Below are positions 11,978 to 41,439 of a stretch of 64,000 bases of DNA, in pieces. The DNA is from Arboricoccus pini. Lineage in GTDB: Bacteria; Pseudomonadota; Alphaproteobacteria; Geminicoccales; Geminicoccaceae. Numbering within the stretch: the stretch's first letter is position 1; the number at the start of each line of letters is the position of its first letter. A model generated the notes under the pieces. The model saw only the letters and a program-made list of their open reading frames with translations, had not been told where the DNA came from and made no database searches. The stretch lies in assembly GCF_900187945.1 (NCBI RefSeq), contig NZ_FYEH01000001.1, positions 434,001 to 498,000 on the forward strand, given 5' to 3'. The translations under genes and the position numbers were made by a program.

Positions 11978-12409
11978 CTAGAGGCTGGCTTTTATGGTCT
12001 CCAGCGCGCGGATGGCCGGGCGAGCATCGTAACCGGCCTCGGCGGCGGCGGCGACAATGGCAGGAATCTGCTGGGTCCGAACCGCATTGAAGGCCCACAT
12101 GATGCAGGAGCGCGTACCTGTCCGGCAGTAGGCGAGGAAGGGACCCTCGTGATCGTCGACGGCGGCCCAAAAGCTGGCGATGTCACCTTGCGTCATCTGG
12201 CCGGAGACCACCGGTACATGCACGTAGTTGAGGCCGGCAGCCTCGGCAGCCTCGCGCGCCTCGGCGTCGGATAGCTGATCCGGTGCCTCGCCATCTGGCC
12301 GGTTATTGATGATCGTGTTGATGCCTTCCGCCTTCAACTCGGCGAAATCCTCGACGGCAAGCTGCGGCGCCACATAGAAGCCATCCGCAACCTTCTTGAT
12401 CTCGACCAT
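11978..12409 (-). CDS. DUF442/TIGR01244-type phosphatase-like protein
   Basis: This 143-residue protein belongs to the small dual-specificity-phosphatase-like family found alone or fused to beta-lactamase-like hydrolases (Blh). It carries a CX5R phosphatase loop, CRTGTRS, after a hydrophobic strand (FLAYC), and the family N-terminus VADGFYVAPQLAVEDFAELKA. The INNRPDGEAPDQ segment is also characteristic. The frame extends 34 codons further upstream, but ATG at 12409 gives the family start. In relatives the domain has been linked to sulfide/persulfide handling and biofilm traits; nothing here decides between these. It converges with opgH. Confidence 0.78.
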   Translation of the reverse strand: MVEIKKVADGFYVAPQLAVEDFAELKAEGINTIINNRPDGEAPDQLSDAEAREAAEAAGLNYVHVPVVSGQMTQGDIASFWAAVDDHEGPFLAYCRTGTRSCIMWAFNAVRTQQIPAIVAAAAEAGYDARPAIRALETIKASL

Positions 12410-19697: not shown

Positions 19698-21725
19698 ATG
19701 CTCGGAGCGGAATCGCCCGGGAGGCTACCCCAATGGCGGGACCCGTTTGACCCCAAGCGACAGCAACGCTCTTGCGGCGAGGCGGGCAAGCTCGGCGCAC
19801 AGGGAGCTGATCGTCCGGCCGTCAAGCTCGATGAGCGGCCCTCCCTAGGTTCAGGCGGCGCATTGCATGTCGGTTCGTCGCTGGTTGTTATCCTGATCGG
19901 CCTTGGCATTTTCGCCGGCTCGACATCTATGGGATTGGCACAAAGTAGCGAGCCCGGACGAGCTGCGTCTGCAGCAATTCCGGCCCTCATCGGGACGGCA
20001 TGGACGGCGGCCGCCTCTGGTCGCGACCGCGCGCGGGCGAGGATTGCAGGGCCAGGAAATGCGGCGGCTGCAGTCGACGGCGGCTCGCAGCACGCATCGG
20101 CCATTCTCGGCGCCACAGCCAACGCGACAAGCATTGCGACCAGCAAGGTCCGCGTTGCCATCGGACGGACTGCCGTCGAGGAGGCGGCACATGCGGCAGC
20201 GACTGTCCAGTCGGGAGGCGTGTTGGTTCCCACAGTGAATTCGTTTCCGTCTATGTCCCCTGCCGAGACCTCCGCCCAACCGGCAAGCGAAACCGGCCAA
20301 ACCGTGTCAGCATTGGGGAGCGAGGTGTCGTCGGTGACGGCAAACGATACGGCCCGGGGCAAGGGTGGGGGGCGTGCCGACAAGGCCCCGGGTACTGCTT
20401 GGCAGGGCGGGCCCAATTCGGCTGCCTCCCTGAGCCAGCCGGCGGCAACGGCGGCAGCGGACTGGCCGGGCGTGGATTTCCGAGCGCTGGCGGCCGGGGC
20501 GTTCCCACCAATCAATGGCAGCCCGATCGACCGTGCTCGGCGCCTAGTCGCACTGGGGCTTGGTGCGGAAGCCTTGGCCGTGCTGGGCCAGGCTGACCCG
20601 CTCGACCGCGCTTATCCGTTTCTTAAGGGGGCAGCCGCCTGCTTGGCCGACCGCCCGGATGCGGTATTGGTTTTTGATCGCGCGCTCGATGCCGAGCCCG
20701 AAATAGGCTTTTGGCGGACGGTGGCAGCCTTGCGCCTGAGCCGCGCAGTCGATCCCGCAGCGCTACGCGCCGCCATAGGCACGCTCCTTGCCTATCCCAA
20801 GGAGATTGCCCGGCGCTTCGTCCCGCTTATCCTCGACGCGATGTTGGCCAAGCGCTCCTTGAGCGATGCCGCACGACTTGCCGAACTCATTCCCTTGAAG
20901 TGGCCTGAGCTTGCCGGAGAACCCGCCATCCAGCTTCTGCAGGGGCGGGTGCATCTCGCGGCTGGTGATACCGATAAGGCGCGCAATATTTTCGAGGTCG
21001 TGGCCCGCAGCGCCGACTTCGCTTCGGCAGTGGCTGCGCGGAAATATCTCGTCGATGCCGATGTCGCTGCTGGACGGCTTAACCTAGCCGCGGCTCTCAT
21101 CCTCCTGGATCGTCAACGCCCGCTCTGGAGAGGCCAGGACTTTGAAGAGAGCTTCATGGATGATCTGGCGTCGATCGCCGATCAGGCCGGTCTGGTGGAT
21201 CGCCAGTTGGCGGTGCTGAGCGAGATTGCCAGTTCAGCGGCCAACGCGGAGGATCACGATCGCGCTTTGGCTGCTGTCCGTGCCGCGCTGCTGGCTGCGG
21301 TCGATCGCCACGACCTGGGCGCAAAGCTTCGCGTGATGGCCTATGTGCGCATGCAGCCACAACTGGCCGAGGGGGCAGGTGATGGTCTCCGCGTGAGGGC
21401 GATCGCCAAGGATCAGGCCGAGACGATGGGACTGCCGCTACAGGCCCTGGCGGGCAACTTCTCAAAATTCGAGTCGCCATCGAATCCGGCGGCTGCCGCG
21501 TCGACCGCAGACGATCGCAAGATCGTGATCGAGCCCCCGCCGCGCAAGCCTGCTGTCCTCAACGTTGCTGCGATGGTTGATAGCGCGGCGTTACCACCTA
21601 TCGGTAAGGTAGCGGGCGAGCCCGACGCCATCGCCGCCGCCTTGGATCGGGAAATCGCTGCTGCACATGCGGTCCTGGCAGCGGCGCGCGAAACGCCCTC
21701 CTCTTCATCGCCGTTGGCACCCTGA
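19698..21725 (+). CDS. Large TPR-like periplasmic or membrane-anchored protein, unknown function
   Basis: I do not recognise this protein. From ATG at 19698 it is 675 residues. A hydrophobic segment (SLVVILIGLGIFAG) ends in an AQ signal-peptidase-like site. Next comes a low-complexity Ala/Ser/Gly-rich stretch of about 180 residues, then a helical repeat region from about residue 270 (RARRLVALGLGAEALAVL, LQGRVHLAAGDTDKARNIF) with the spacing of TPR/Sel1-like helices. The start is uncertain: GTG at 19656 overlaps the cheY stop, and TTG at 19863 would give a normal cleavable signal peptide. Its tight position behind cheY suggests a motility role, as for rhizobial MotC, but similarity to MotC is not established. 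Confidence 0.6.
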   Translation: MLGAESPGRLPQWRDPFDPKRQQRSCGEAGKLGAQGADRPAVKLDERPSLGSGGALHVGSSLVVILIGLGIFAGSTSMGLAQSSEPGRAASAAIPALIGTAWTAAASGRDRARARIAGPGNAAAAVDGGSQHASAILGATANATSIATSKVRVAIGRTAVEEAAHAAATVQSGGVLVPTVNSFPSMSPAETSAQPASETGQTVSALGSEVSSVTANDTARGKGGGRADKAPGTAWQGGPNSAASLSQPAATAAADWPGVDFRALAAGAFPPINGSPIDRARRLVALGLGAEALAVLGQADPLDRAYPFLKGAAACLADRPDAVLVFDRALDAEPEIGFWRTVAALRLSRAVDPAALRAAIGTLLAYPKEIARRFVPLILDAMLAKRSLSDAARLAELIPLKWPELAGEPAIQLLQGRVHLAAGDTDKARNIFEVVARSADFASAVAARKYLVDADVAAGRLNLAAALILLDRQRPLWRGQDFEESFMDDLASIADQAGLVDRQLAVLSEIASSAANAEDHDRALAAVRAALLAAVDRHDLGAKLRVMAYVRMQPQLAEGAGDGLRVRAIAKDQAETMGLPLQALAGNFSKFESPSNPAAAASTADDRKIVIEPPPRKPAVLNVAAMVDSAALPPIGKVAGEPDAIAAALDREIAAAHAVLAAARETPSSSSPLAP

Positions 21726-33861: not shown

Positions 33862-34795
33862 CTTAGAGCCTAACCCGAAAAGAGTTGAGCAGTTTCACCA
33901 GGTTGTGATTCCGTCAGTTTGCGAGACTTGATGGAGGTCACGATGTCCTGGATCGAAACCGCTCGGCGTGATCATGCACGCCGAGGGCTGCGCTATTCAA
34001 GTGATCTGACCGATCGGGAATGGACGCTGAGATCGCCCTTCCTACCCAAGCCGAGGCCCCTTGGTCGCCCTCGGACCACGGACCTTCGCGAGGTCGTGAA
34101 TGCGCTCTTATATCTGGCGTCGAGCGGCTGCGCATGGTCGCTGCTGCCCAAGGGACTTCCGCCCTTCACGACCGTCCAGCGCTACTTCTACGATTGGCGC
34201 GACCGTGGGGTTCTGAAGACGATCAGCCACCATCTCGTCACGGCGGCGCGTGAACTGGAAGGCCGGGAGGCAAGTCCAACGGCCGGCGTCATTGACAGCC
34301 AGAGCGTCAAGACCACCGAAAGCGGCGGTGTTCGCGGCTTCGACGCCGGCAAGAAGATCAAGGGCCGCAAGCGCCACATCGTCACCGACACGCTCGGTCA
34401 TCTGGTCGGGCTCGTCGTCCACGGCGCCGATATTCAGGATCGAGACGGGGCCGTCGATGGCCTCGATCCGCCTTCGCTATCCCTGACTGCGTCATGTCTT
34501 CGCCGATGGCGGCTACGGCGGCGACAAACTGAAGGGGCGCTTGACCAAGCTCGGCCAATGAACCCTTCAGATCATCAAGCGCTCCGATCACGCCAAGGGC
34601 TTCGAGGCTTTGCCGCGGCGATGGGTCGTTGAACGCACCTTCGCCTGGCTCGGTCGCTGCCGTAGGCTCGCAAAGGACTACGAAAAAACCATCGCCAGCG
34701 CGGAGGCATGGATCTTCGTCGCAAATCTCCGCATCCTCACAAGGCGCGTCGCAAGGTACTGCTATCCCTCATAGAGTTTCGAGTCGGGATCTAAG
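33862..34795 (+). mobile_element. Degraded IS5-family insertion sequence
   Basis: The element is about 0.93 kb. The left end CTTAGAGCCTAACCCGAAA (33862-33880) and right end TTTCGAGTCGGGATCTAAG (34777-34795) are imperfect inverted repeats matching at 14 of 19 positions. They flank a single broken transposase frame. Size, ends and transposase type fit the IS5 family (IS427/IS1031-like). I could not settle the target duplication: the left flank suggests TTA and the right TAA, so it may have decayed or the ends may differ by a few bases. Confidence 0.8.
33943..34774 (+). pseudogene. IS5-family transposase, frameshifted with two nonsense codons
   Basis: ATG at 33943 (GGAGG five bases upstream) starts SWIETARRDHARRGLRYSSD, followed by LTDREWTL and the DDE-type VIDSQSVKTTESGGVRGFDA and KIKGRKRHIVTDTLGHLV. 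After about residue 175 the frame shifts by one base near 34460, and the rest (FADGGYGGDKLKGRLTKLGQ, then [20 protein letters not shown]) continues in another frame to 34774. Two conserved Trp codons there read TGA (34484 and 34559). It is inactive. Confidence 0.88.
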
Positions 34796-35507: not shown

Positions 35508-36005
35508 CTCGCAGCTTTGCTGTATGTCTCCGGCACGACCGGCCGCTCCAACGGGGCGATGCTCATTATCGAGAATCTTCTCGGCAACGCTGTGACGCTA
35601 AAGGACCTCTGGCGCTTTTCTCCGGCTGACGTGCTCCTGCACGCACTGTCACTTTACCATGTGACGGTAGGTCGTCGGTCGGTCGAAAGATGCCATCATC
35701 GCAGGTGGGCCCAATATTTACCCAAGCGAGATCGAGACGTTGATCGACGCCTTAGCGGCAGGCGAGGAATCGGCCTTGATCGGTTTGCCGCACCAGGGCC
35801 GGGTGAAGGTGTCGCGGCCGTGGTCGTGTTGCGACCGGCTGCCAGCCTGACGCTTGAAGAGATGACGCAGGCGCTCGTAGGAAGGCTTGTCCGCTTCAAG
35901 TTGACCCGGCGCCTTTTCATCGTAGATGCCTTGCCGCGCGACGCGACGACCGAGGTGAACAATGCGAGCCTCCGCTCGACATTCAGGGATGGTTTCTGCA
36001 CTTAA
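35508..36005 (+). pseudogene. Remnant of malonyl-CoA synthetase-like AMP-forming ligase
   Basis: The fragment starts at LLYVSGTTGRSNGAML, the phosphate loop of acyl-CoA synthetases, and continues NLLGNAVTLKDLWRFSPADV and LLHALSLYHV as in MatB-type enzymes. It then jumps to DAIIAGGPNIYPSEIETLID in another frame and PGEGVAAVVVLRPAASLTLE in the first, with no conserved catalytic Lys near the end (TTEVNN replaces the usual GKV region). About 280 internal residues and the N-terminus are missing. It is not functional. Confidence 0.8.
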
Positions 36006-36159: not shown

Positions 36160-37350
36160 ATGAGCAGCGCCGCTAAAACAATGGACGCGGGCCCATTGGT
36201 CGCCGCGGCCCGTGCAGTGCTGGCTTCCGGCGCCGCGGTGCGCGTGCGCGACGGGCGCGAGGCGTGCCTCATCCAGGCAATCGACGGGCTGACGTCCGAG
36301 CGTTTCACTCTCCTTCGCGACGGGGCAAATGGCCCCTGCCGTCTCGTGCTGACGGGCGAGCGTACCCAGCATCTGGGCATAGCGCCTCGGAGTACGGGCA
36401 GCCTTGCCATGGCCCTGCCGGCTGATATCGGCTTCGATGCCGTGCGTGGGCTTGCCGAGCCTGGCTTCGAAGCCCTGGCCGGGGAAGTCCGTCCAGGCTT
36501 CTTTGCCGCTGCTAGCGAAGCTGAGACGGCCGGAATCGAACTCGTCAAGCGGGCCGGACTCCTGCCTGCCATTCTCTCGACCTCGGAGTCTGGCGCCCTT
36601 GATGCCGTCCTGGAGCTCGACGCCGCTCTCGTCTTCGCGCAGGCCGAGAGCGAGCTGTCGAGCCTAGTTCGGGTCGTGGAGACCCGTTTGCCGATCACTG
36701 CGTCGGAATCGTGCAGGATCGCCGTCTTTCGCTCGCCCATCGGCACTGCCGATCAGGTTGCGCTCTCGATCGGCAATCTCAAGGAGTCGCTTGAGCGCGG
36801 CGAGGCCCCCTTGGTCCGCCTCCATTCGGAGTGTCTGACAGGGGATCTCTTCGGCTCGCTGCGCTGTGATTGCGGCCTGCAATTGCAAGGAGCGATCGCC
36901 CATATGACCGATGAAGGTGCCGGCATCCTCCTCTATCTTCGCCAGGAGGGGCGGGGCATTGGGCTCATCAACAAGCTCCGTGCCTATCGCCTGCAGGACC
37001 AGGGCTACGACACGGTCGACGCCAACATGCATCTGGGCTTTCAGGCTGACGAACGGGATTTTCGCATTGCGGCCCGCATCCTGAGTCTGATGGGTGTAAA
37101 GCGGATCCGGCTATTGACGAACAATCCCGATAAAGTCCGGATCATCGCCCAACACGGCATCGAGGTCGTCGAACGCGTGCCATTGTTTTTTGCCGCCAAC
37201 TGCCATAACCGCGCCTATCTCCAGACGAAGCTTGAAAAAAGTGGGCACTTTCTTCGCGTCATCGACGGGGCTCGCGGCAGCAAAGGCGACGTGGCCAGCG
37301 ATCTTGCCCGCATCCTGCGTGGCGGGCCGGGCGAGGAGATCGGCGCCTGA
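36160..37350 (+). CDS. ribA: GTP cyclohydrolase II with degenerate RibB-like N-terminus
   Basis: GTP cyclohydrolase II opens GTP to 2,5-diamino-6-ribosylamino-pyrimidinone phosphate, the first riboflavin-pathway step. The C-terminal half (from about residue 180) is intact: zinc ligands Cys225, Cys236 and Cys238 in [55 protein letters not shown] and LLTNNPDKV. The N-terminal 170 residues resemble DHBP synthase but lack its acidic DDxxRENEGD active site. The 396-residue form is known in Alphaproteobacteria. It overlaps a RibD-type reductase gene by four bases and is part of a six-gene pterin-like locus, so it may serve that rather than riboflavin. Confidence 0.9.
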
Positions 37351-38264
37351 GCGGGCCGGGATCGCTGCCACTCGAGCCGGAATGCGGCATCACGCGATTC
37401 TGGCCGGCCCTACTCGCCGCCAGAGATGACGGGTCGATTCCAGATCTGGCGGGCTTTACCCTGACAGCGGTGGAACGACAGCTTGCGCAGAGCTATCTCG
37501 ATTTCCTCACGCCCGCGGCGGATGGACTGAGCGTTCTCGCCCACCTGGGGCAGAGCCTAGATGGTCGAATCGCCACATCGAGCGGCCATTCGACCTACGT
37601 GACCGGCAAGGCTGATCTCGTCCATATGCATCGCTTGCGCGCACTGGCTGATGCCGTGCTTGTGGGCGGGGGCACGGTGGCGAGCGACGATCCGCAACTG
37701 ACGGTGCGTCTGGTCGAAGGCCCGTCGCCCTTGCGCGTGGTCATCGACACGAGACGCAAGTTGACGTCGACTTGTCGGCTCTTTCGGGGCGGGCCGCCAA
37801 CCCTCGTGCTGTGCCGAGAGGATCGGCAGGAAGGCCCTGAGCTCGGCAACGCCGAGCTTTTAGGCCTGCCGAGTGAACTGAACGGCAGCCTCGCGCCCGC
37901 TACCATTCTAGATTGGCTGCGCCGCCGCGGCATCCGCCGCATATTCATAGAAGGAGGCGGCATCACGGTCTCGCGCTTCCTTGCCTCCGGGTGTCTTGAC
38001 CGTCTGCAGCTCTGCATAGCGCCGGTGGTCATCGGCTCCGGACGCGAGGCGCTTCGCCTTCCAGCTGTTGCCACCATGGACGAGGCGCTGCGGCTAAAAC
38101 CTGTCGTGATACCGATGGGCAGCGATTGGCTTTTTGACTGCGACCTCAAGCGCCGACCGCTTCCAGTTCAGCGCGTCTCAGGTGAAGGCGCGGAGCCTTA
38201 CGCCGTCGCCAGCGAAGAGATCGTCGTGGCCGACAAAAGCACCTCCGATGCCCTTTTCCGCTAG
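37347..38264 (+). CDS. RibD C-terminal-domain reductase (dihydrofolate reductase-like)
   Basis: This stand-alone NADPH reductase domain resembles the RibD C-terminal/Rib7 family, which reduces a ribosylamino to a ribitylamino pyrimidine. Motifs are [59 protein letters not shown] and [12 protein letters not shown]. No deaminase zinc motif is present. The first standard start in frame is GTG at 37470, but coding sequence clearly extends upstream ([20 protein letters not shown]) to a CTG at 37347 that overlaps the ribA stop as CTGA. I therefore infer a CTG start. The 3' end overlaps a convergent methyltransferase gene by 87 bases. Confidence 0.82.
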
Positions 38265-38984
38265 AGCCCGGCGCTCCGAGAGCCAGGCCAGGATGCGGGG
38301 CGTGGCACTCGGATTGGCCTCGCAGGCCGCTTCCGCCATCCCTTCGATGAACGCCACGATCATCGGCCCGTCTTTGGTGCCCAGCACCCATTCGGACGGT
38401 GCAGGCAGCACGCTGAAATCGATTGCCTGGCTCAAATGATCCCGCGCATTGCCACCGAGCGCCGGACCGAAACCTTTGTCACGTCGCTGATGTTCGTTGA
38501 AAAGCGAAATCATTTCCTGGTCGCCCTCGACCGGCGGGTGGAGTTCGATCTCGCCATTGAATGTTAGGGCTGCATAGAAAGGTAGGCGCCTTTGCGCCAG
38601 GAGGTGCAAGAGCCGATCCAGCCATTCGGCCGACACCAGATCCAGAAGGGCTGACGTGGTGACGAGGTCGGTATCGGCAGGAAAAGCCGCTTCGAGGTCG
38701 CTTGCGAGATCAAGCTCACGATAGCGCCATTCGACATCGGGCATGAGCCGCGAACTGCCGTCGGAAATCAGCTCCGGGTCGTTCTCGATAAGGGTCCAAC
38801 TTTGCGCGCAGCGAAGACGTGGCGCGAGGTAGCGCAGATTGGCTCCGGTCCCGGCGCCCAGATCGACGATGTTGAGGTGGCTGCGACCACTGCTCCACGC
38901 ACCGATCCGGATGGCCGTCTCGGGGTCACGTGCCATCTGGTCATAAGGTTCGCGCAGGTCCAGCCATGCGCTGGCAAAGCTCAT
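38178..38984 (-). CDS. SAM-dependent methyltransferase
   Basis: The 268-residue protein has a class I SAM-binding site, IVDLGAGTGANLRYLAPRL, with the acidic second motif WTLIENDPELI and a third motif AAFPADTDLVTTSALLDLVS. The C-terminal half (DHLSQAIDFSVLPAPSEWVL, then a helical end) is not that of a known substrate class. ATG at 38984 overlaps the stop of the upstream glycosyltransferase gene (ATGA). It is last in a minus-strand set of dehydrogenase, PTPS-like protein, glycosyltransferase and methyltransferase. A role in decorating a pterin-like or sugar product is inferred from context. Confidence 0.85.
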   Translation of the reverse strand: MSFASAWLDLREPYDQMARDPETAIRIGAWSSGRSHLNIVDLGAGTGANLRYLAPRLRCAQSWTLIENDPELISDGSSRLMPDVEWRYRELDLASDLEAAFPADTDLVTTSALLDLVSAEWLDRLLHLLAQRRLPFYAALTFNGEIELHPPVEGDQEMISLFNEHQRRDKGFGPALGGNARDHLSQAIDFSVLPAPSEWVLGTKDGPMIVAFIEGMAEAACEANPSATPRILAWLSERRALAEKGIGGAFVGHDDLFAGDGVRLRAFT

Positions 38985-40042
38985 CCCTTGTCCTCCAGAA
39001 GTGCAGCCACTTCAGCAGCGGTTGTCGGCCAGTCGCGCAGGGCCTGCCGCGCGATTCTCGAGCCCGCCTGAAGCCTCAGCCGCATGATGGGGTCCCCAAT
39101 GGTTCGGCGCAATGCCGAGGCCAACGCGTCGACGTCGCCGCTGTCGATCATGCAGGCGGCATCAGGCGACAGCCAATTGCCTATTGCGCCCGCACGTACG
39201 GCCACTACCGGGAGACCACAAGCAATCGCTTCGGCGACGGCCATGCCGAATCCTTCGTAGAGCGAGCTCGAAACGAAGAGATCGCTCGAGGCATAGACTC
39301 TTGCCAAGCTGTCTCCGTCAAGCTCGCCCAAAAGCGCTACACGTCCTCCGAGTGTGCCAAGATTTCCCAGGGCTTCGCGCAGTTGTCCAACCTCGACGGG
39401 ATCACGGATCATCGATCCCACGAGGTTGAGTCGCCAATCCAGATCGCCCAGCCTGCCCATCGCTCTGATCAGATTCGGAAAATTCTTGCGCGGGATGACC
39501 GAGCCGACAGCCAGGAGCGACAGGTATGGGCCAGGACCACCGGTGGAAAGCGGTGAGGGCGTTGTCCCGGGAAGGGCCACCTGGATGCGTGTGGCCGGCA
39601 CGTCGAAATCAGCGACCAATGCATCTCGTGTAACAGGTGAGGTGACGACGATCTTGTGCGCGAATTTAAGGGCGGCCCGCTCGCTTGCCTTCAATGCTGC
39701 AACGTTGACCGGCGATAATCCGGTCTCATAGGCAAGCGGGTGGTGGATCAGCGCCAGGATCCGCAGGCGCTGAGCCTCCCGCGCCATAATCTCGGGCATG
39801 ACCGAGAAGGCCATGCCGTCGATGAGCAAAGTGGTGTGCTCGGGCAGATCCGCAAGCATGGCTGCCGCCCGTGCGCGTTCGTCTGGCCCGGGAGAGGGAA
39901 AGCCGCCTGGGAGCCGGAGCGACTGGACGGTCAGTCCGCCAGCGCGCAGGGCAGAAAGGAGATGATGGTCGTAGAGATAGCCCCCCGTTCGCTGGGCGGG
40001 GTCACCTGGAACAGCAAAGACGAGGGATCGCTCGTCGCTCAA
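38981..40042 (-). CDS. Glycosyltransferase family 4
   Basis: The 353-residue protein is a GT-B fold retaining glycosyltransferase. It starts [20 protein letters not shown], with the GGYxYD loop of this subgroup. It carries [33 protein letters not shown] (acceptor/donor hinge), and the EX7E motif in [20 protein letters not shown]. It lacks membrane helices and probably acts in the cytoplasm on a small acceptor. It overlaps both neighbours by four bases (40039-40042 and 38981-38984), so it is translated with the PTPS-like protein and the methyltransferase. The sugar and acceptor are unknown. Confidence 0.87.
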
Positions 40043-40440
40043 CTAAGCGGCCCCTCGAACCCTGCCCAGGCCGTATGACTCTCGCCTAATTCGACGCCTA
40101 GCGCGTCGACGGCATTGGCGTCTGGCCCCAGTTTGCCGGCTTTGATAGCCTCGGCCATTTGGCCATGTATCCAGCGCGCCACGAACTCCGTGGTGGTATT
40201 CTCTCCAGCAAAAGCAGGCACATCGTCGAGATTGCGATAATTGATCTCTGCCAGAATCGCCTTCAACGTCATGGTCGCAAGACCTATGTCGACGACGATA
40301 TTGTGCCGGTCCAATTCCTTGCGTCTGAACGTTACGTCGACGACGAAGGTGGCTCCATGAAGAGCTTGGGCAGGTCCGAACACGTCGCCCTTGAAGCTGT
40401 GCGCGATCATGATGTGATCGCGAACCCGCACATTGAACAT
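40039..40440 (-). CDS. 6-pyruvoyl-tetrahydropterin synthase / QueD homologue, catalytic residues altered
   Basis: The 133-residue T-fold protein is homologous to PTPS/QueD. His14 in [11 protein letters not shown] and His28 in [14 protein letters not shown] occupy zinc-ligand places. The usual C-x3-HGH reads A-x3-HGA, so the catalytic Cys and one His ligand are missing, and the Asp-His dyad region reads NYRNLDD. The substrate-anchoring Glu survives in ENTTTEF. It therefore probably does not perform the standard lyase or carboxy-pterin reaction but may bind a pterin-like ring. It overlaps the glycosyltransferase by four bases; the dehydrogenase lies 12 bases upstream. Confidence 0.82.
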
Positions 40441-40452
40441 CCTTGTCTCCTG

Positions 40453-41439
40453 TCAGCCCTCGTCGTAACGCACCACATGGCAAAGTGTGCCGGTACCGTC
40501 CATGGCCAGTTGGCGCATCGTGGCCGGTAGCGACGCAAACGAGCTCTCTCCCGTCAGCAGCGCGTCGAGTCGGTCGTCCAGGAGAAGCTCGAGAGCCTTC
40601 GAAAGGCGGCGTCCATGCGTCCAGCGGGCCCGCTGGACGTTCGCCACCTGTCCGACCTGGGAGGAGATGAGTCGCAGCCGCTTGGCGTGAAAATCCTCGC
40701 CCAGCGGTAAAGCCGGGCTCGTCGTTCCATACCAGCCAAGGGCCAGGATGGTGGCCTCGAAGGCCGCCCTGCCAAAGCAAAAGGCCAGGGCCTCGGGATT
40801 ACCGCTGGCCTCGACGACGAGATCGGCATTGTCGAAGGTCCAGCTTGGTGAGGCAAAGGCGCAGCCAAGGCGGCGAGCCAGCGGTGCCTTTCGCTCGTCC
40901 TTGTCAACGATCGTGACCTGAACGCCGGGCATCCGTGCCGCCAAGAATGCTACGAGCAGACCTACCGTTCCGGCGCCGACGATGGTCACACGGTCGCCCG
41001 GCAGGATTCCCGCATCCCAGAGTCCGTTCAAGGCGGTCTCCATGTTGGCTGCCAGGACGGCGCGCCTTGGCGGCAGACCACTCGGTATGCGCTGCACCAA
41101 CGCCTCATCAATGTTCGCTCGGGTCTGGTGCGGATGCAGAGCGAAGACCGTGCGTCCCAACCAACGCGCCGGTCCGGCCTCGACGATGCCGACGAGGCTG
41201 TATCCATATTTGACGGGGAACGGGAACGCGCCTTCCTGGGCGGGGCAGCGCATGCGCGCCCATTCCCGGCGCGGCACCAACCCTTGGGCGACCATCGATT
41301 CCGTGCCGCGGCTGATCCCGGAAAAAAGGGCCTGAACGCGCACTTGCCCGTCGCTGAGATCCGGCAGCACGGCCTGCCGGATCTCACCCATCAGCGGTCC
41401 GGTCGTCCAATAGGCCTGACTCTTTAGCCGCGTCGTCAT
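40453..41439 (-). CDS. MDR-family dehydrogenase (zinc-alcohol-dehydrogenase-like)
   Basis: The 328-residue protein belongs to the medium-chain dehydrogenase/reductase family, with the NAD(P) site VTIVGAGTVGLLVAFLAARM and a following acidic VTIVDKDERK. The N-terminal domain has SGISRGTESMV and KYGYSLVGIVEAGPARWLGR instead of the standard GHE zinc motif, and no structural-zinc Cys cluster. This is like the BchC/2-desacetyl-hydroxyethyl group. HPHQTRANIDEALVQRIPSG and ANMETALNGLWD are characteristic. ATG at 41439 is chosen over upstream extensions. It is the first gene of the four-gene minus-strand set, so it may oxidise or reduce the pathway's hydroxyl group. Confidence 0.85.
   Translation of the reverse strand: MTTRLKSQAYWTTGPLMGEIRQAVLPDLSDGQVRVQALFSGISRGTESMVAQGLVPRREWARMRCPAQEGAFPFPVKYGYSLVGIVEAGPARWLGRTVFALHPHQTRANIDEALVQRIPSGLPPRRAVLAANMETALNGLWDAGILPGDRVTIVGAGTVGLLVAFLAARMPGVQVTIVDKDERKAPLARRLGCAFASPSWTFDNADLVVEASGNPEALAFCFGRAAFEATILALGWYGTTSPALPLGEDFHAKRLRLISSQVGQVANVQRARWTHGRRLSKALELLLDDRLDALLTGESSFASLPATMRQLAMDGTGTLCHVVRYDEG

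Follow-up and report, generated by a model that had tools for sequence, protein, structure and literature searches.

Pterin biosynthesis is the nearest known kind of system to the locus described here. In the cyanobacterial route to tetrahydrobiopterin glucoside, GTP cyclohydrolase I (GCH I), 6-pyruvoyl-tetrahydropterin synthase (PTPS) and sepiapterin reductase are combined with a pterin glycosyltransferase. The riboflavin pathway (RibA and RibD; ArfA, ArfB and ArfC in archaea) opens GTP with GTP cyclohydrolase II (GCH II), uses a separate formamidase in some lineages and employs a RibD_C-type reductase; the toxoflavin cluster joins a GCH II and a RibD-type protein to a methyltransferase; and in Chlamydia RibA and TrpF bypass the GCH I enzyme FolE, the GCH II product being diverted to a pterin through a TrpF isomerization. 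Against this background we analyzed a 64,000-nucleotide stretch of the Arboricoccus pini genome (contig NZ_FYEH01000001.1, positions 434,001 to 498,000; hereinafter the window), which contains six adjoining genes coding for RibA, a stand-alone RibD_C-type reductase (RibDc), a medium-chain dehydrogenase/reductase (MDR), a PTPS-like T-fold protein, a GT4 family glycosyltransferase and an S-adenosylmethionine (SAM)-dependent methyltransferase (MT). The locus follows the cyclohydrolase/T-fold/oxidoreductase/glycosyltransferase logic of the cyanobacterial route, but it has a GCH II instead of a GCH I (71 of 97 loci of this kind), its PTPS looks inactive, and an MDR and a methyltransferase belong to the set. 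Compared with the riboflavin pathway it has no deaminase domain, RibH or RibE, its RibB domain is degenerate and the rib operon lies elsewhere in the genome, whereas the toxoflavin cluster is not known to include a PTPS-like protein, MDR or GT4, and the chlamydial bypass is not known to involve any of these or an MT. On balance, we favor the view, argued from sequence and gene neighborhoods, that these genes together make from GTP a pterin-type compound that is glycosylated and usually also methylated. Its component families are known, with the PTPS-like member a structural orphan.

All six open reading frames (ORFs) were confirmed in the window, and the genes and spacing given by an earlier sequence-only reading were recovered with identical gaps. 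The four minus-strand genes run in the order MDR-PTPS-GT4-MT, with 12 bases between the MDR and PTPS genes and 4-base overlaps at both the PTPS/GT4 and GT4/MT junctions; this set converges on the plus-strand RibA-RibDc pair, with a tail-to-tail overlap of 87 bases between the MT and RibDc genes (38178-38264). The host genome (4.07 Mb, 99% complete) belongs to an order in which we found the PTPS-like gene in 25 of 31 genomes. Neighborhoods were compared for 20 of these 25: the complete set of six genes is present in 13, and the tail-to-tail arrangement of the window recurs in 10. The named members of the host family in this set are Marinimicrococcus flavescens (L099, identical in DNA to L030) and a Geminicoccaceae metagenome-assembled genome (MAG; L053, identical in DNA to L033). 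Across 385 genomes of the class, a PTPS-like profile (E 1e-20) matched 45 and an MDR profile (E 1e-50) matched the same 45, while an MT profile (E 1e-15) matched 40, all within the 45. The PTPS and MDR genes lie at most 150 bp apart on the same strand in 43 of the 45, and the PTPS and MT genes at most 1.5 kb apart in 38 of the 40. This exact co-occurrence of PTPS and MDR over 34 genera is not due to chance, though shared ancestry makes the counts dependent on each other.

A scan with one genome per species confirmed at least 586 of 595 candidate stretches, and the genes are also clustered in Actinobacteria, Gamma- and Betaproteobacteria, Acidobacteria and Gemmatimonadota. The best 80 of these, used for locus counts, come from Streptomyces, Micromonospora, Lentzea, Amycolatopsis, Halomonas, Thioalkalivibrio, Variovorax, Acidobacteria, Gemmatimonadota, Kofleriaceae and others; within 10 kb, several being on short contigs, 79 have the MDR, 78 the GT4, 75 the MT, 57 RibA and 39 RibDc. 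Joining the 20 order loci to these 80 and removing the duplicates L099, L053 and L073 (identical to L030, L033 and L036) left 97 distinct loci, all with the PTPS-like gene and with the MDR in 95, GT4 in 92, MT in 89, RibA in 71 and RibDc in 53. Accessory genes, named from Pfam except for a sulfatase-like protein (no Pfam match; named from annotation), are a CDP-alcohol phosphatidyltransferase (77 loci), a flippase-like LPG_synthase_TM protein (59), a creatininase (49), the sulfatase-like protein (25) and an FkbM methyltransferase (17). The order and strand of MDR-PTPS-GT4 are kept in 84 of 91 loci. The most compact versions are found in three genomes of 1.4-1.6 Mb with 26-28% GC (L170, L171 and L172, the latter two from one genus), where the creatininase, MDR, PTPS, GT4, MT, RibDc and RibA genes occupy about 6 kb, with nothing between the seven in the gene lists of L170 and L171. 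Thus, the six families are kept together and in order across phyla, as the sequence-only reading had proposed to check, and the six genes are part of one conserved module rather than a chance neighborhood. That reading's idea of a single route leading from GTP to a decorated compound of pterin or pyrimidine type, distinct from those of riboflavin, folate and queuosine, is well supported by this co-occurrence and gene order and by the presence of the rib genes and queD elsewhere in the genome; the flavin-type product that it also considered is unlikely. We additionally observed a copy on a short contig (L094, 5190 bases) labeled as an archaeal (Natrialbaceae) MAG, which may reflect a binning error. 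Searches of the open-access literature, with most subscription journals outside their reach, retrieved no paper describing this gene set and no known product.

RibA (36160..37350, plus strand) has its GTP_cyclohydro2 domain at residues 171-341 (PF00925, E 4e-60) and passes the GCH II family model (TIGR00505, 230.3 bits against a cutoff of 205.85). An alignment to Escherichia coli GCH II (2bz0) showed that it keeps the HSECxTGD motif, the zinc cysteines of the CDCG motif and the Tyr105 position. The N-terminal part adopts a RibB-like fold by fold search, but the acidic motif, DDExRENE in intact RibB, is lost from it and present in the gene of the genome's rib operon; the region had been called a degenerate RibB from sequence, and so it proved. 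A solved RibBX (6mnz) was among the fold matches: there, too, RibB and GCH II are fused and one of the halves has decayed, but in RibBX it is the GCH II half that has degenerated, whereas in the window RibA that half is intact and the RibB half decayed. The genome run nrdR-ribD-ribE-ribB(X)-ribH-nusB, recognized by eye and from Pfam matches, lies elsewhere, so that the ribD, ribE, ribB and ribH genes sought as a separate set are there; a second intact ribA, looked for along with them, was not found. A domain search had suggested three GCH II genes, but the other two (L164:4840-5994 on contig C12 and L165:3586-4713 on C15, both in RibB proteins) turned out on alignment to lack the HSECxTGD, CDCG and EGRGIGL motifs in their GCH II halves and to be RibBX-like. 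We accordingly abandoned the notion of a dedicated, spare RibA in this locus: it is the only intact GCH II among the three domain matches and, the other two being degenerate, probably also feeds riboflavin synthesis. A comparable arrangement is known from Aeromonas salmonicida, where RibBX has RibB activity only and ribA alone provides GCH II (PMC10012899). In G287, one of the genomes with the cluster, the rib-operon gene is likewise of the RibBX type, and the sole GCH II motif that we found is that of the cluster's RibA.

RibDc (37347..38264, plus strand) is a second copy beside the full RibD encoded elsewhere in the genome. Its only Pfam domain is PF01872 (E 1e-38), so that the stand-alone reductase without a deaminase domain predicted from sequence was recovered as such, this check covering the window copy. 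Its best solved relatives are 2,5-diamino-6-ribosylamino-pyrimidinone 5′-phosphate reductases or related uracil reductases. The first ATG, GTG or TTG codon is the GTG at 37470, yet homology with most relatives sets in at about 37374-37401. Translation may begin at a CTG (37347) that overlaps the stop codon of ribA, with the late GTG as the alternative. Neither RibH nor RibE is encoded in the window locus; both were located by eye on C12.

The PTPS-like protein (40039..40440, minus strand) has the T-fold domain (PF01242, E 9e-23), and its nearest solved structure is SCO6650 of Streptomyces coelicolor (3D7J, chain A; E 9e-49 over 130 residues), listed in the PDB as 'Uncharacterized protein'. The Streptomyces loci likewise join the MDR, PTPS, GT4, MT, a creatininase and RibA, but differ in that their RibA is short, stand-alone and has Met for Tyr, and in that RibDc is in the locus in just one of 26. 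SCO6650 reportedly lacks PTPS activity. In the 6-carboxy- and 6-pyruvoyl-tetrahydropterin synthases (QueD and PTPS), three histidines bind zinc, a cysteine and an Asp-His pair are catalytic and glutamates anchor the pterin ring. With these enzymes the window protein has the T-fold, PF01242 and the ring-anchoring glutamates in common; an alignment with the genome's own QueD showed that two glutamates are kept, whereas the cysteine, one of the three zinc histidines and the Asp-His pair are missing, which bears out the earlier suspicion that the standard catalytic residues are lacking. The loss is general among the members compared: Glu85 and Glu120 are invariant and HGH is changed to HGA in 12 of 12 aligned rows, and in four PTPS-like members aligned to QueD the cysteine is absent and the DH pair not kept. 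The protein also falls below the cutoffs of the named families (TIGR03367, 39.8 of 89.25 bits; TIGR00039, 29 of 125.5), and the true queD lies elsewhere in the genome in a queC-queD-queE run (by eye and Pfam). Among 20 plasmid records (H1-H20), 14 call the PTPS-like gene a 6-carboxytetrahydropterin synthase of queuosine synthesis. This label is probably wrong, since the aligned members lack the catalytic residues.

The MDR (40453..41439, minus strand) matches named families below their cutoffs, best the NCBIfam bchC model (E 6e-10), then threonine and polyol dehydrogenases, and its Pfam ADH_zinc_N match is also sub-cutoff. In zinc-dependent MDR alcohol dehydrogenases a Cys and a His-Glu pair are catalytic zinc ligands; an alignment with E. 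coli Tdh showed that they are not kept here, Cys being replaced by Ser and GHE by GY-. Its longest ORF starts at a TTG (41673), and homology in most relatives begins just after the ATG at 41439. The GT4 (38981..40042, minus strand) carries the Glycos_transf_1 domains PF00534 and PF13692 (E 1e-21 and 2e-23) and resembles MshA-type, PimB-type and Tll1590 chains weakly, so we assign it neither donor nor acceptor. The MT (38178..38984, minus strand) is a class I methyltransferase of an unnamed family, with a weak PF13649 match below the cutoff and neither an NCBIfam match nor a PDB sequence match; a structural model (pLDDT 93) retrieved just generic class I methyltransferases in a fold search. The linkage of the two, on which the proposed pathway had been staked, extends in Halomonas and related bacteria to a single ORF for GT4 and MT in four loci (L105, L106, L122 and L124, from about 10396 to 12320-12408).

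The entry into the pathway can be approached through natural variation at the position equivalent to Tyr105 of RibA, which is Met in 26 Streptomyces loci and His in seven loci of Amycolatopsis, Lentzea and Thermomonospora, the motif being unreadable in 26 of the 97 loci. A creatininase, with members counted by profile search, is encoded in the same locus in all 33 of these Met- or His-type loci, and in none of eight Tyr-type loci of Micromonospora and Actinoplanes. The Met-type SCO6655 reportedly stops at the formyl intermediate. A study of BrbF shows that this creatininase-family formamidase deformylates exactly the formyl intermediate of GCH II (PMC9478397). As a creatininase always stands beside a Tyr-less RibA, a formamidase appears to be needed where deformylation has been lost, which suggests that the pathway's entry product is the deformylated diaminopyrimidine. 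The two creatininases of the window's genome lie elsewhere, in neighborhoods that look unrelated by eye.

Putting these features together, we propose that RibA would open GTP, with deformylation by RibA itself or, where the tyrosine is lost, by the creatininase-type formamidase of the locus. The 2-amino group would probably be kept, given that the window reductase has no deaminase domain. RibDc might then reduce the ribosyl chain (or a ring), and the zinc-less MDR might act on the polyol chain, at a secondary alcohol or a ketone. Its PTPS-like partner, retaining the glutamates that in relatives hold the 2-amino-4-oxo ring, could hold the ring during closure or reshaping of the side chain, which GT4 and then MT would decorate. 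In one possible order, the RibDc reduction and an MDR oxidation at C2′ would together equal the Amadori step of GCH I and yield a dihydroneopterin-type pterin; the identity of the product and the order of the steps are what we infer from the families present.

A locus of genome G260 (L279) bears on this and is the one closest to the cyanobacterial route. It has the MDR, PTPS, GT4 and MT with a CDP-alcohol phosphatidyltransferase, FkbM and sulfatase-like genes, and neither RibA nor RibDc in the 19.8 kb of G260 covered by the stretch; divergent from the MDR, with the ORF start 17 bases away, lies a GCH I gene (L279:10850-11578 in G260:C121). The encoded protein has the CxHH and HLC motifs that mark GCH I, and is one of three FolE proteins encoded in G260. 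A GCH I beside the MDR in place of RibA and RibDc is most simply explained by a pathway that passes through a pterin, and hints that it runs via a dihydroneopterin-type compound. The window cluster has no GCH I gene, the genome's FolE being encoded on another contig.

Several observations weigh against the pterin reading. Among 127 loci scanned (three of them duplicates), L279 is the only one with a neighboring GCH I. Nor is it alone in missing the RibA-RibDc pair: six others (L033, L040, L083, L085, L183 and L282) also have neither gene in the compared stretch, and they have no FolE nearby. The MDR is retained in L279; hence, if the product is a pterin, it cannot act only in ring formation, which weakens the candidate role of a purely ring-forming oxidase that we had considered for it. 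The association between the tyrosine and the creatininase is confounded with phylogeny: all 38 Tyr-type loci together split into 14 with and 24 without a creatininase. RibDc is absent from the compared stretch in 25 of the 26 Met-type Streptomyces loci. The PTPS-like gene is missing from six of the 31 genomes of the order, and the MT from five of the 45 class genomes; four of the five hold the MDR, PTPS, GT4 and RibDc genes (L175-L178), and the locus of the fifth (G083, L174) runs into the end of its contig. As four of them keep the rest, the MT looks like an optional tailoring enzyme. Lastly, with no other intact GCH II found in its genome, the window RibA may be present mainly for riboflavin.

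That last point leads to an explanation in which RibA and RibDc are simply the GCH II and reductase of riboflavin synthesis, lying beside an unrelated glycan- or lipid-tailoring operon of MDR, PTPS-like, GT4 and MT genes. The status of the cluster's RibA in the window genome and G287, both with RibBX-type rib operons, the A. salmonicida precedent (PMC10012899) and the several loci lacking both genes would all fit. We nevertheless judge this improbable: RibA proteins of the Tyr, Met, His and KLDAY types accompany the same operon in different phyla, and RibDc exists here in addition to a full RibD and in several loci stands directly upstream of the MDR on one strand. S. coelicolor, moreover, presumably has GCH II enzymes other than that of the cluster. 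Still less probable, in our estimation, is that the cluster mainly serves folate synthesis by providing dihydroneopterin without GCH I, the glycosylated and methylated molecules being forms for storage or transport. Searches for FolE and FolE2, made in 50 of the 65 cluster-bearing genomes (39 of the 45 from the class and 11 of the 20 named ones), found FolE2 in three and neither enzyme in four (G190, G287, G364 and G258), of which G287 (covered almost in full by 1.39 Mb of pieces, overlaps included; L223:4825-6483) keeps a folP-folB-folK run, folC and, recognized by eye, pabA and pabB, with no GCH I found. Unless it imports dihydroneopterin, either the cluster or RibA with TrpF, as in Chlamydia, would have to supply it, and G287 does have TrpF. 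Against such a role in general stands FolE itself, present in 46 of the 50 genomes including that of the window, and folate supply is therefore unlikely as a general function.

The accessory genes raise another alternative, namely that the product is a glycosylated, methylated ribityl-diaminopyrimidine resembling a nucleolipid head group, in which RibA and RibDc would yield a ribityl phosphate, the MDR and PTPS-like protein would alter the chain without closing a second ring, and a phosphatidyltransferase would link it to lipid in other lineages. Outside the window's order the CDP-alcohol phosphatidyltransferase is usual and the flippase-like protein often part of the set, and their frequencies over the 97 loci accord with this proposal, as do the affinity of RibDc to diaminopyrimidine reductases and the missing catalytic residues of the PTPS-like protein. 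On the other side, the GCH I of L279 would not yield a ribityl pyrimidine, and the phosphatidyltransferase is absent from the window, from 13 of the 20 order loci and from the loci of the three streamlined genomes; we regard this alternative as possible but unlikely. Where phosphatidyltransferase, flippase-like and sulfatase-like genes join the set, the compound is probably lipid-attached or exported, that is, made for the envelope in many other lineages. Between positions 20000 and 58000 of the window we found none of these or of the other accessory genes, and the genome has no close orthologue of the phosphatidyltransferase (best E 8e-4). Plasmid-borne versions vary: Peteryoungia plasmid records show the same accessory pattern, adding genes for a sulfatase and an FkbM methyltransferase as well as a cytochrome b next to RibD; a Thiodictyon plasmid cluster also has the cytochrome b; and a Methylosinus plasmid cluster has only the MDR, PTPS, GT4, a protein in the place of the MT and RibD. 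The cytochrome b genes adjoin RibD at L191:12055-12582 and L194:11528-12085 in two plasmid-borne clusters. A YceI gene lies between RibA and RibDc in the Geminicoccaceae relatives L030, L031, L032 and L042 (by eye, with Pfam run on the L042 copy, L042:6663-7286), but not in the window, where the two genes overlap. The cytochrome b next to RibD and the YceI between RibA and RibDc hint at a redox partner in the envelope.

A more sweeping version of the pterin reading would have the cluster represent a GCH I-independent pterin route spread across phyla. What GCH I does by Amadori rearrangement would there be shared among GCH II (helped in some lineages by a distinct formamidase), the RibD-type reductase and the zinc-less polyol dehydrogenase, with ring closure falling to the rebuilt T-fold protein. 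Carrying sugar and methyl groups, the pterin would in many lineages be linked to lipid and flipped to the outside, where it would be a redox-active component of the envelope not described before; streamlined bacteria without FolE or FolE2 would also use the route to feed folate synthesis. We hold this full scheme to be rather doubtful.

Around the locus, inspection by eye points to a transposase-like ORF (33919-34632) and an apparently truncated fragment of an AMP-binding ligase (35517-36005) immediately upstream of RibA, suggesting that the left flank has been rearranged. A viral or phage origin is unsupported: just three phage records gave partial matches (32-35%), and among 25 viral stretches that fitted a sequence pattern, tblastn recovered no relative.

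The gene set is thus common and kept even in genomes of 1.4-1.6 Mb. If its product is a decorated pterin, these bacteria would share a widespread cofactor, pigment or envelope compound that has been missed so far, and the queuosine annotation of the PTPS-like gene would be wrong. The chemistry can be put to a direct test with the minimal seven-gene set and with the locus that contains a GCH I. In the cluster-bearing genomes that lack FolE, one of which retains folP, folB and folK, the puzzle of a missing gene in folate synthesis becomes open to experiment.

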